A stretch of DNA of 64,000 bases, from positions 16,769,545 to 16,833,544 of the forward strand of contig NC_044919.1 in the NCBI RefSeq assembly GCF_003576645.1. Reading direction: 5' to 3'. The notes under the pieces were generated by a model. The model was not told the DNA's origin, did not search any database, and saw only the letters and a program-made list of their open reading frames with translations. The translations under genes and the position numbers were made by a program. Source of the stretch: Ipomoea triloba (lineage: Eukaryota; Streptophyta; Magnoliopsida; Solanales; Convolvulaceae). Below are positions 6,542 to 10,091 of the stretch, piece after piece (position 1 is the first letter of the stretch; each line of letters begins with the position of its first letter).

Positions 6542-7019
6542 TTGTTTTCCTTTTCTTCTCTACGTGCTCTCCGCTGTCATCTCATTGTGCCTCTCTTGGT
6601 GCGGAGTATACGATGAGTCTAGGACTGGGGAAGTGGGATTACAGAGAGCGATGAAATTGATGAATGAAAGAAGCGCTTTTCCTAAGCGATTTAAGCTTTG
6701 AGTTAGGTGTCATGGAAAGGAAACAAATATTTAAAATATTGATTGATGAATGGAGTTGTTAGTACCATCTCTAACGCAGTAACACGCCACCTGAAAGAGT
6801 GAAGAAATTGGAAAAATGGTGTATTTGAGTAAAATTCTAGTTACTTTTAGTAAGAGTAAATTAGATTGAAGAAGGCAGAGTTACATTGCAAGATAAGGGA
6901 TTAAAAAGATGAAAATGTATTGATTGTAAAAGTAGTTGCCGAGTGGATAGAGTAATCTAACCGGAGAGCAATGTGTGTAAAAGTTGGTCTCCTAATATGT
7001 CAGTGGATGCTATTTATAC
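6542..7019 (-). promoter_or_regulatory. 5'-flanking region of the KMS1-like gene
   Basis: This is the stretch between the start codon and the first transposon upstream. It should hold the 5' leader and core promoter, but no TATA box or other element could be assigned with confidence. An open frame at 6441-6701 on plus merely crosses exon 1 on the wrong strand. Confidence 0.35.
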
Positions 7020-7372
7020 TAAGAGCATCCACACCAATTGTTTTTTGTGGGGTCCAATATGAGGTGGAGGATAGAGAAGAAAGAAAGAGAATGTATTTTA
7101 AACTCCTGCAAGATAATGTTTTTTGTGGGCCTCAGGAGAGAAACAACGGAGGAACTTTTTCTTATTTTTTCCAATTTTTGTGGGCCCCGCTGTTGGAGGA
7201 TATACCTACAGTAGTAATAGTGAGGGTATTAGTGACATTACATGTAGTTAGCTTCTCTGTGTAGTGTATAAAAGGGCCATAAGCCTTCACTGTTAAGGGA
7301 GAGTTATATATTCATTCTGTAAGCTTCAGTTCTCATTAATCAATACAACATAGTTCCATTCCATCTTCTTCT

Positions 7373-8158
7373 ATGTACTGCTTTGTACATTCCAACATGG
7401 TATCAGAGCTCGTCGGTGAGGGAGTTATACCGTCGCAGCTTCCGGCACCGGCAAGTCACGCTGAGCTGCGCCGCATTCGTCTCCGGCGAGAGATTCGCAA
7501 AGGATCTTCACTCCGTAGAGGAGTAAGTTCACCTTTCAATCCGAGCGCAGTGCTCATCCAATCAAGCATAGACGGCAGTTCACGGAGCAGATCCGTGGAG
7601 ATTTCGAGCAAAGTGCTCGTTAATCCTCAGTTTGCCGTCTTCAATCGTACTCCATGGAGCAGATCCGTGAAGGGATCGAGCGCAAAGCTCATTAATCCCC
7701 TATTTGATTCAGTTTGTATTCAGAGTTTGAGCAAAGTGCTCATCAGTTCTCTGTTTACAATTTTCACCCGGAGCAGATCCGGGAAAAGCTCGAGCGCAAA
7801 GCTCGTAGTCGTTGTATCGTCGCCGCAGTGGCGAACGAGGAAGAAGAAGGAGTTTCTAACTCTGATTCGTGACTTTGTTTCTGAAAAATCGCAATGAGAG
7901 CGAAGAATCTCGAATCTGAGGAACCGAATTGGAGAGCTTCGATCTGTGATTGAGGCCGCAACTGCGAACATCGAAGAAGCATGTGCAGAGTATGCTGAGA
8001 TCATTAACACTGGTAATCAGTATATCTTTAATACTCAATCCAAATATTCATCTGAGACAGTAGAGGATACCTTTGTTGAATAATCAACGGAGGCTGCTGA
8101 GTCCAGTGATTGTAAAACTTTTGCAAACTTATTTGAAGAGTTTTTTGATAAACTAACG
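7373..8158 (+). pseudogene. 5' part of the retrotransposon reading frame, unrecognised
   Basis: One forward frame stays open from inside the 5' LTR to 7894, then continues through a TGA (7895-7897) and a TAA (near 8081) in the same frame towards 8162. The first part is Ser/Arg-rich and shows repeated DNA motifs (gagcagatccg, gagcgcaaagctc), so it looks locally duplicated. The part from 7934 reads RSVIEAATANIEEACAEYAE, compatible with a helical protein. I do not recognise either part. It may be a relic gag or another captured host fragment. Confidence 0.45.
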
Positions 8159-8161
8159 GAT

Positions 8162-8772
8162 ATGGCTGTGTTGTTTCCTGTGAGTAAAACTGGTAATGCA
8201 AAAGCCAAGGAAGGTGATGATGTTAATGTGAAAGTGAAAAAGAAAGAGACGACTACTATGATTAGGTCTGGTCTCTTCTTTGGTAAGTCATTAGAAGTTT
8301 ATACAAGCCGGCCTAAAGAGGAACCTGAAGTCACTGAAGAGTTCAGTGATGCAGAGTGGAGTGATCTCATAGAATCTCAGCTAGAGGAGCTCATACTGAG
8401 CAATTTGGATGCAATTTTCAAGAGTGCAATCAAGAAAATAGTGGCTTGTACTTATAGCGAAGAGATTGCAAATAAGGATGTTCTGAGGTCTGGTTTGTGC
8501 TATAGGCATAAGGACATTGTGTCAAATTCAGTGGATAATACTTTGGCATTTCTTAGGAATGGCTAAGAGTTTGATATACATGTGGAGCGTTATTTTAATA
8601 ACTTGCAGTAGATGGAAAAGTATGTTTTGGCTGAATTAGTTTGTCTTCTGCGAGAAGTTAGGCCGGTCTTTAGTACTGGTGAGGTAATGTGGTGCTTGTT
8701 AATATGTGACATGAATGTGTCCCAAGCTTGTGCAATGGACAATGATTTTTTGAGTAATTCGGTTTTGAATGG
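8162..8772 (+). pseudogene. Captured fragment of an RF298/MIP1-like RING-type E3 ligase gene
   Basis: In one frame, broken only by stops at 8564 and near 8609, the translation holds EWSDLIESQLEELILSNLDA, IFKSAIKKIVACTYSEEIA, VLRSGLCYRHKDIVSNSVDN and, after the stops, AELVCLLREVRPVFSTGEVM then WCLLICDMNVSQACAMD. I recognise this as the conserved N-terminal (UBA-like) region of plant RF298/RF4/MIP1-type putative E3 ubiquitin ligases. The RING domain of that family is absent. There is no sign of introns, consistent with capture through an RNA intermediate. The flanks are a retrotransposon 5' region on one side and a SUD1-like fragment on the other, in the same frame. Confidence 0.85.
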
Positions 8773-9130
8773 GGTGTTTCTTCCTCTTGATATTTCTGTG
8801 TCAAATCCATTTACTGAAATTCCTACTGACATGCTTCTCTTTAAAATCTGCATTCCTTTTGCCATTGAGCATTTTAAATTGCTAACAACAATCAAGTCTC
8901 TCTTTCGATATTGGTTTACTATTGTGGGTTGGTCTCTTGGCTTAACTGAGTTCTTACTGCCTAGACCTGAGGATAATAGTGGGCAAGAGAATGGAAATGG
9001 TGACCAAAAGGCAGGCATAACAGGGTGCATGGGCAGTTAGGTGGACAAGATCGTGCATTTGTGGGACTTGCTCCTGATGATTTGAACAGAATTAGACATG
9101 CCACAAGAATTAATGGCAATTCTGTTGATG
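8773..9130 (+). pseudogene. Captured fragment of a SUD1/CER9 (DOA10-like) E3 ligase gene
   Basis: Directly after the RF298-like piece and in the same frame, the translation reads FLPLDISVSNPFTEIPTDML, LFKICIPFAIEHFKL, then WSLGLTEFLLPRPEDN and a GQENGNGD stretch. This is a hallmark segment of the multi-pass ER ubiquitin ligase SUD1 (CER9, Doa10/MARCH6 family). A frameshift near 9020-9030 moves the continuation (QLGGQDRAFVGLAPDD) to the next frame, ending near 9130. Only a small internal part of the roughly 1100-residue protein is present, without the RING-CH domain. No intron is seen within it. Confidence 0.82.
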
Positions 9131-9200
9131 AGGTGTATGTCAAAACAATTTGGATGACAGTATTGATGATGACAAGCTCAAGGAGTTGTTCACTGAATTT
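9131..9200 (+). pseudogene. Probable captured fragment of poly(A)-binding protein (RRM)
   Basis: After a one-base frame change near 9142, the sequence reads NLDDSIDDDKLKELFTEFGA, preceded by VYVK. This matches the start of an RRM in plant cytoplasmic poly(A)-binding proteins, where VKNLDD is followed by a KLKELF helix. The match is short and then decays, so it is weaker than the two fragments before it. If right, the element has combined pieces of three host genes. Confidence 0.55.
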
Positions 9201-9545
9201 GGTGCATTCTGATTTCATCCGGACATCAAATGAGGTTTCGGATTTGTATGATGACATGAGAAAAGAAAAACTTGTTATAGAACTTGATGCCCTTCATTTT
9301 GCAGCAGTGTATCGGCATGTCAGGTGCCTGATTTTGTTCCCAGAAGTGAACGTTCTCATTCAAAGAGTAAAGTGTGTAAATGAATGTGCAGATGATAACA
9401 CTGATTTTTTGGATTTGTTTGAGGGCATGCTAACATGGCACTCTCATTCAGTCTTCTCAAGGCCAGAGTCCTCCCTTACACTCTCTTTCTCTGTTTCATT
9501 CTAAGCTGGACATACAAAGCATTGCATGCTCCAACTTATGGGGGG
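9201..9545 (+). pseudogene. 3' interior of the gene-capturing element, unrecognised
   Basis: An open frame continues to 9504 (for example LVIELDALHFAAVYRHVRCL and KCVNECADDNTDFLDLFEGM). I do not recognise it. It ends about 40 bases before the 3' LTR, where the polypurine run is found. It may be a further captured piece or filler. Confidence 0.35.
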
Positions 9546-10091
9546 TGTTAAAGGATATAGATATACCTACAGTAGTAATAGTGAGGGTATTAGTGACATT
9601 ACATGTAGGTAGCTTCTCTGTGTAGTGTATAAAAGGGCCATAAGCCTTCACTGTTAAGAGAGAGTTCATATATTCATTCTGTAAGCTTCAGTTCTCATTA
9701 ATCAATACAACATAGTTCCATTCCATCTTCCTCTACGTACTGCTTTGTACATTCCGACACCCGTGCACATACAGCGCTCAGTTGGGCGCGTGCACTACAG
9801 GCGCATTAGGCACTATCTTTATTTATTTATTTATTTATTTTTGCGTCAGAGAACAACTTTTTCTTTTCTTCTTCTTCTTCTTCTCTCTCCCTCCTCCCTC
9901 TCCTACTTGGCTTCTTAAATATTGTGCAAAAAAAACAATTGGTATGGATGCTCTAAGCATCTAGGCTAGTGCTATGGTTATTTGTAACACGAGGCTCTAA
10001 GGTGGCATGCTCCGATTGGAAGAGAAAAGTAGTATATAGGCATCATGGCAAGCTATCCTATCAACTAGGTAGACAGGTTAGCGTATTGAGC

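Follow-up and report, generated by a model that had tools for sequence, protein, structure and literature searches.

What is the element at positions 7191–9759 of a 64,000-nucleotide stretch of the Ipomoea triloba genome (hereafter the window; C4:16769545-16833544, on contig NC_044919.1), which has the ends of a long terminal repeat (LTR) retrotransposon and an interior composed of host-gene pieces, and how did it come by them? An initial annotation, made from the sequence, had described it as an LTR element carrying a fusion of ubiquitin-ligase gene fragments. Our analysis of the window and of related loci across the genome (462 Mb in 17 contigs) makes us rather confident that it is an LTR retrotransposon without gag-pol of its own, likely derived from a copia element, and that its mosaic of host exons likely arose through a copia reverse transcriptase, supplied in trans, that switched templates repeatedly.

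The ends of this 2,569-bp element display all the hallmarks of LTR retrotransposons, namely LTRs of TG...CA type, a primer binding site (PBS), a polypurine tract (PPT) and a target site duplicated at four of five bases (CCCGC at 7186–7190 and CCCGT at 9760–9764, both read directly). The 5′ LTR (7191–7397, TGTTGG...CCAACA) and the 3′ LTR (9546–9759), on the plus strand like all the parts of the interior, are 207 and 214 bp long, as initially reported, and 97–98% identical; the 5′ copy is 97% identical to the 3′ copy, with 8 differences over 207 aligned sites. Their Kimura two-parameter (K2P) distance of 0.040 would correspond to an age of about 1.5–2.9 million years at the substitution rates that we assume for plants. 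The PBS TGGTATCAGAGC (7398–7409), read directly and conserved across the family, is presumably of the initiator tRNA-Met type, in agreement with the first description, and both LTR and PBS have what we take to be a copia-type look. The 3′ end of the interior (9494–9545) comprises a probable copia pol tail and the PPT GGGGGG (9540–9545, read directly): the segment 9494–9553 shares 76.7% identity over 60 bp with a locus (L088) that has an RVT_2 domain. This 60-bp tail is all that recalls a retroviral gene, and a Pfam scan of the six sense open reading frames (ORFs) of the element revealed no gag or pol domain, as had been anticipated. The element is nested in a small, older transposon whose inverted arms (7016–7049 and 9927–9960, 88% complementary) flank it and are both adjoined by TAA.

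The interior begins with a leader (7398–7981) common to other copies, to whose leaders its pieces are 68–93% identical, and continues as a series of pieces of which adjacent ones overlap by 0–7 bases. The first (7975–8280) is an older module, also found in copies on C8, C10, C14 and C2, and is related to LOC116033687, an uncharacterized gene of I. triloba that lies on C10 and has several exons. The gene's record P0180 maps to locus L024 in at least four blocks, three of them with 98–100% identity, and is 63% identical to window positions 7946–8272 over 133 aligned residues; the idea that this module lacked a host source was dropped once the relationship emerged. The LOC116033687 locus (L024/L036, C10:4383103-4386472) contains internally repeated exon-like blocks and is apparently a relative of this much-captured module. 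Next comes an exon piece of the RING E3 ligase RF298 (8287–8778), 91% identical to C13:29029216-29029707 (E 1.2e-197). Pfam recognizes PIR2-like_helical in this region (E 5e-8 and 1e-9), a domain also present in the 722-aa donor ORF. The initial annotation had named RF298 correctly and placed it at 8162–8772, bounds that need correction, as 7975–8280 is a separate module. The RF298 piece is followed by a SUD1-like piece spanning two exons (8780–9133, junction at 8796/8797), whose identity was likewise well recognized and whose start moves from 8773 to 8780, across the spliced junction; its part 8797–9133 is 94% identical to C9:1295218-1295552 (E 4.6e-144). The name SUD1 is partly our assumption; record P0133, so named, shares part of the piece. 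The poly(A)-binding protein (PABP) piece suspected from the start occupies 9134–9206 and is 94.5% identical over 73 bp to a donor on C1 (L041:1552-1622) that has three RRMs and matches PABP in PDB; the piece is frameshifted and reached only E 1.8e-4 in a protein search. PDB sequence searches gave no match for the SUD1 donor exon or the RF298-SUD1 frame, and one weak unrelated match (E 0.048) for the RF298 frame. Farther downstream lie a short piece with one match elsewhere (9243–9288, 98% to C4:14423788-14423833), a two-block piece (9288–9371, 93% to C3:13545226-13545265 and 13545124-13545153), the blocks of which are farther apart in the genome than in the element, possibly owing to an intron, and a segment (9369–9533) shared at 93% and 85% with two chimeric loci, on C3 and C4, in which histone-deacetylase and zf-UBP pieces occur. 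The leader, the copia-like 3′ end and the pieces at 7975–8280 and 9243–9371 were all additions to the original description. By eye, the I. batatas record P0120 shares with the window RF298, PABP and the stretch that follows, and has no SUD1. Several RF298-like places lie close together at C4:29091370-29336037, possibly as a local gene cluster.

The donor's SUD1 intron (L013:1357-1500, gtaag...ggcag) is exactly absent at the window junction 8796/8797 and, therefore, at least the SUD1 piece derives from a spliced transcript. The similarity to RF298 and SUD1 on which the initial interpretation hinged thus proves real (91% and 94% to the donors), as does the capture of two genes of the ubiquitin system; the proposal that both came from spliced transcripts stands for SUD1, the RF298 piece being a single exon. 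The ubiquitin theme itself is incidental, because unrelated genes account for most of the remaining donors that we found.

These other donors supplied a whole family of elements, larger and more varied than the possible family of mobile chimeric genes initially envisaged, with many donors and apparently recombined copies. Leader matches occur at no fewer than 31 separate loci, the window included, with 40 of 102 first-look candidates scored. LTR pairs were found at 20 places, with 92–99% identity and K2P distances of 0.010–0.076; repeat pairs below 92% were not counted as such (C10:4383103, 76%; C2:14657239, 72–75%; C5:13931691, 77%; C8:1412350, 88%). The 20 interiors that we compared correspond to 18 of these places plus C14:13516847 and C2:14657239, for which no LTR pair is in hand, two composites with LTRs 4.8–4.9 kb apart (C14:8378224 and C10:7867690) being excluded. 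The PBS is exact in 17 of these interiors and one base off in the remaining three, and the PPT motif is present within two edits in 19. Exact 5-bp target-site duplications flank six of the 20 LTR-paired places. The 3′-end signature, allowing up to two mismatches, is found at 127 places (65 forward and 62 reverse; none in the control). What remains constant among copies is the LTRs, the leader and the short copia pol end, and what varies is the middle: the sister copies that an LTR search had been expected to reveal do exist, but they hold other mosaics instead of one conserved fusion. One sister place (L070, C11:11801850-11805300), with a 636-bp interior made mostly of leader and 3′ end and a second 3′ end upstream, is perhaps an empty form of the element. 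At L005 (C3:8023560) and L006 (C5:14597788), sequences 76% similar to the first 159 bases of the LTR lie beside an opposite-strand ORF that we presume to encode a ribosomal L24 protein. L077, suspected of having gag after its leader, showed no Pfam family there.

The variable middles come from a broad range of host genes. Of 30 sense ORFs, 17 scored above the curated Pfam cut-off for at least one family, DUF4283 aside, which amounts to 16 host families: PIR2-like_helical, LbH_GLGC, NTP_transferase, Hist_deacetyl, zf-UBP, Cpn60_TCP1, HSP70, Got1, QWRF, HVA22, thioredoxin, GH1, ankyrin, Adaptin_N, AMP-binding and Alfin, with LbH_GLGC and NTP_transferase counted separately here and belonging to the same enzyme type. 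Matches to MAP65, EF-Tu and Na/H-exchanger remained below the cut-offs, and DUF4283, which we take to be LINE-like (from a long interspersed element), also occurs. The 30 ORFs include some from loci without a leader in hand: L039 and L040 (C3 and C4; the source of zf-UBP) have the family 3′ end only, L025 (C9:13047205; LbH_GLGC) has the 3′ end together with an LTR piece, and L036, where neither is present, corresponds to LOC116033687. Directly after the 3′ end of L039 (C3:27176636-27179752), a long series of bases is unreadable or masked. In an antisense control, nine of ten ORFs had no Pfam family and the tenth had NAD-GH above the cut-off, presumably as an antisense artefact of HSP70, of which the same copy contains a piece in sense. 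The chimeric ORFs are often single, long and in sense, reaching up to 670 aa. This longest ORF contains QWRF, HVA22 and DUF4283 above the cut-off (Cpn60 below), and both host pieces examined in this copy join parts that are separate in the genome, three exons for HVA22 (C1:37503172-37503567) and four blocks for QWRF (C8:4174076-4175877). Similarly, the C8:15257996 copy has residues 4–90 of a LOC116033687-type protein contiguous, residues 1–63 and 51–105 of the C10 gene matching blocks ~310 bp apart; at 52% identity to this copy, the C10 gene is a relative of the true donor.

Could these pieces have been captured as DNA? Repair or recombination might have brought genomic fragments into the element, and their introns might have been lost later, when the element's RNA was spliced in a further round of retrotransposition. 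Sense introns inside an LTR element can indeed be spliced from its RNA, and the one donor intron read, that of SUD1, has ordinary gt...ag ends. However, no orientation bias would be expected from such capture, yet the cargo matches between copies outside the leader and 3′ end were all in sense (33 against 0 antisense, in 27 pairs covering 18 of the 20 interiors; 171 against 0 with a looser filter). Nor did any piece that we compared with its donor contain intron sequence, and many pieces from dispersed genes would require many repair events in one short element. We consider this route unlikely.

Template switching between RNAs would proceed as follows. Element RNA and host mRNAs would be packaged together and, during first-strand synthesis, the reverse transcriptase would jump to a host mRNA and later back to the element RNA, so that the product would keep the leader on one side of the cargo and, on the opposite side, the pol tail, the PPT and the 3′ LTR. 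Once inserted, it could template the next round, and pieces would accumulate and copies recombine. The frame that starts at the ATG beside the PBS tends to stay open into the cargo. Some copies do look recombined from sister copies. In the C9:15681500 copy, query bases 1–1125 are 97% identical to C4:21708000 and bases 1120–1466 are 97% identical to C14:14826138, with an overlap of 6 bases. Likewise, the C2 copy matches the RF298 piece of the window (95.7% over 302 bp) in a match that continues to 8791, past the RF298 edge, and then diverges elsewhere.

The reading frames add another aspect. The leader frame of the window (7397–7894, with a stop at 7895) starts at an ATG that overlaps the LTR/PBS border; it corresponds to no Pfam family, and seven of 16 Ipomoea protein records begin with MVSEL, as it does. 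A single frame covers the ATG (7397–7399), the module 7975–8280, RF298 and the first part of SUD1. The shared frame initially noted between RF298 and SUD1 is thus genuine, but it is interrupted by four stops (7895, 8081, 8564, 8609) and, near 9005, by a frameshift, such that this copy cannot yield one protein; being decayed, it is not an intact chimeric gene. In the family, the longest sense ORF exceeds those of all 200 shuffles in 17 of the 20 interiors (p = 0.005 for the window and C14:17779152, 0.01 for C11).

Such long sense ORFs, together with an 88% match in sweet potato (I. batatas) over 90% of the length of the C2 copy's ORF, might suggest a domesticated chimeric gene, in which case selection would act on the fusion as a host gene and its position in LTR remains would be fortuitous. 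Against this stand the four stops and the frameshift of the window copy and the even spread of substitutions over first, second and third codon positions, both with respect to the donors (16/15/12 for RF298 and 6/3/5 for SUD1) and between copies (11/13/11 over 1,161 ungapped sites for two sisters and 3/6/4 for the window and the C2 copy), which leave domestication very unlikely. In the leader, changes summed over 22 related pairs are similarly distributed (597/563/605). Frames thus appear to have been kept open without much amino-acid constraint, from which we infer selection on openness: because the amino-acid sequence shows little constraint, an open frame likely helps the RNA survive.

Several observations weigh against this interpretation or parts of it. 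Antisense ORFs are somewhat long too, with p of 0.035 or less in 13 of the 20 interiors. In favour of openness, no other frame reaches as deep into the cargo as the leader frame in 15 of them, with p = 1.7e-4 if they are independent, but this value is optimistic given that the copies are related and that some leader ends were set by BLAST inside the leader; in the other five, another frame runs further. Ratios of nonsynonymous to synonymous change (dN/dS) of 0.45–0.91 over the 22 leader pairs leave room for weak constraint. Regarding capture, the RF298 and PABP pieces each lie within one exon and are thus uninformative on splicing, 9207–9242 had no source found, and the matches for 9243–9371 are short. 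Of the 20 LTR-paired places, 13 showed no target-site duplication: three are clear mismatches, and at the others the ends are cut or unclear. The search for a complete autonomous partner that shares the LTR yielded none, L088 being the only one opened of the 127 places with the 3′-end signature; it has a copia reverse transcriptase and no match to the window beyond 9553. The likely copia link draws on the 60-bp match, on the type of the PBS and on a single leader-bearing I. batatas record that also has Retrotrans_gag. Transcription, packaging and translation of the element RNA are themselves proposals.

At a threshold of E 0.001, a protein search with the leader retrieved 71 proteins, of which 70 have legible Ipomoea names and one a truncated name, and none was listed from outside Ipomoea at that sensitivity; the weakest of these matches cover little of the leader. 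Together they bear ~45 gene names, and many Ipomoea database proteins named for ordinary host genes look like these chimeras; the I. triloba record P0006, for instance, reads like the C13:7279952 copy. A one-off capture of a few genes by an otherwise ordinary element, in an unremarkable family, has precedents in Bs1 (PMC13317346) and GmaRetroS15 (PMC4717578), each with three host pieces, but the differing donors of the sister loci, where 30 sense ORFs hold 16 host Pfam families, and the 71 proteins under some 45 names leave it barely any probability.

Bs1 of maize, whose pieces consist of exons only (PMC4717578), is similar as an LTR element in which pieces of three host genes form a chimeric gene (PMC13317346), and our element likewise contains sense, intronless pieces of unlinked host genes, splicing within the window being shown for SUD1 only. 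However, Bs1 is described as a single element with three captures, whereas the Ipomoea copies hold differing sets and some are apparently recombined. Terminal-repeat retrotransposons in miniature (TRIMs) resemble the window element in their short LTRs (here 207/214 bp) and in the lack of gag-pol domains (none in its six sense ORFs), but its 2,569 bp exceed their very small size. The 30 gene-carrying TRIMs of soybean and Medicago, in seven subfamilies, measure 1,172–1,449 bp and also have exon-only, intronless pieces and 5-bp duplications; two contain exons of more than two genes, and GmaRetroS15 of soybean has three host genes (PMC4717578). The window copy differs from them in its 2.6 kb, its three named host genes plus further pieces, and the apparent recombination between copies. 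A maize survey found 425 LTR elements with host gene fragments, which resemble ours in bearing these inside intact elements; under its conditions, none combined fragments from two or more standard nuclear genes (PMC2774510). Pack-MULEs, CACTA elements and Helitrons are also mobile families that shuffle gene fragments, but they are DNA transposons, and Pack-MULEs also take introns (PMC4717578), whereas the Ipomoea pieces tested are spliced and in sense. Among the open-licence papers listed for Ipomoea and sweetpotato LTR retrotransposons and for multi-gene LTR capture, no report was recognizable as this family.

A broader, more tentative view, which we find conceivable but not yet probable, is that the family is a running exon-shuffling machine that in each replication round could join pieces of unrelated host mRNAs and of sister copies behind a fixed leader, with its start codon over the primer site, and favour open frames. 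Ipomoea would thereby hold a combinatorial library of in-frame chimeric proteins that databases now present as ordinary genes, dozens of them. Few cases of multi-gene capture by LTR elements were previously known, and intron-free mosaics that differ among copies and apparently exchange parts make RNA-level exon shuffling datable, countable and watchable. They are also a concern for annotation, as some of the ~45 gene names borne by the 71 leader-matching proteins may mislead gene-family and crop studies.

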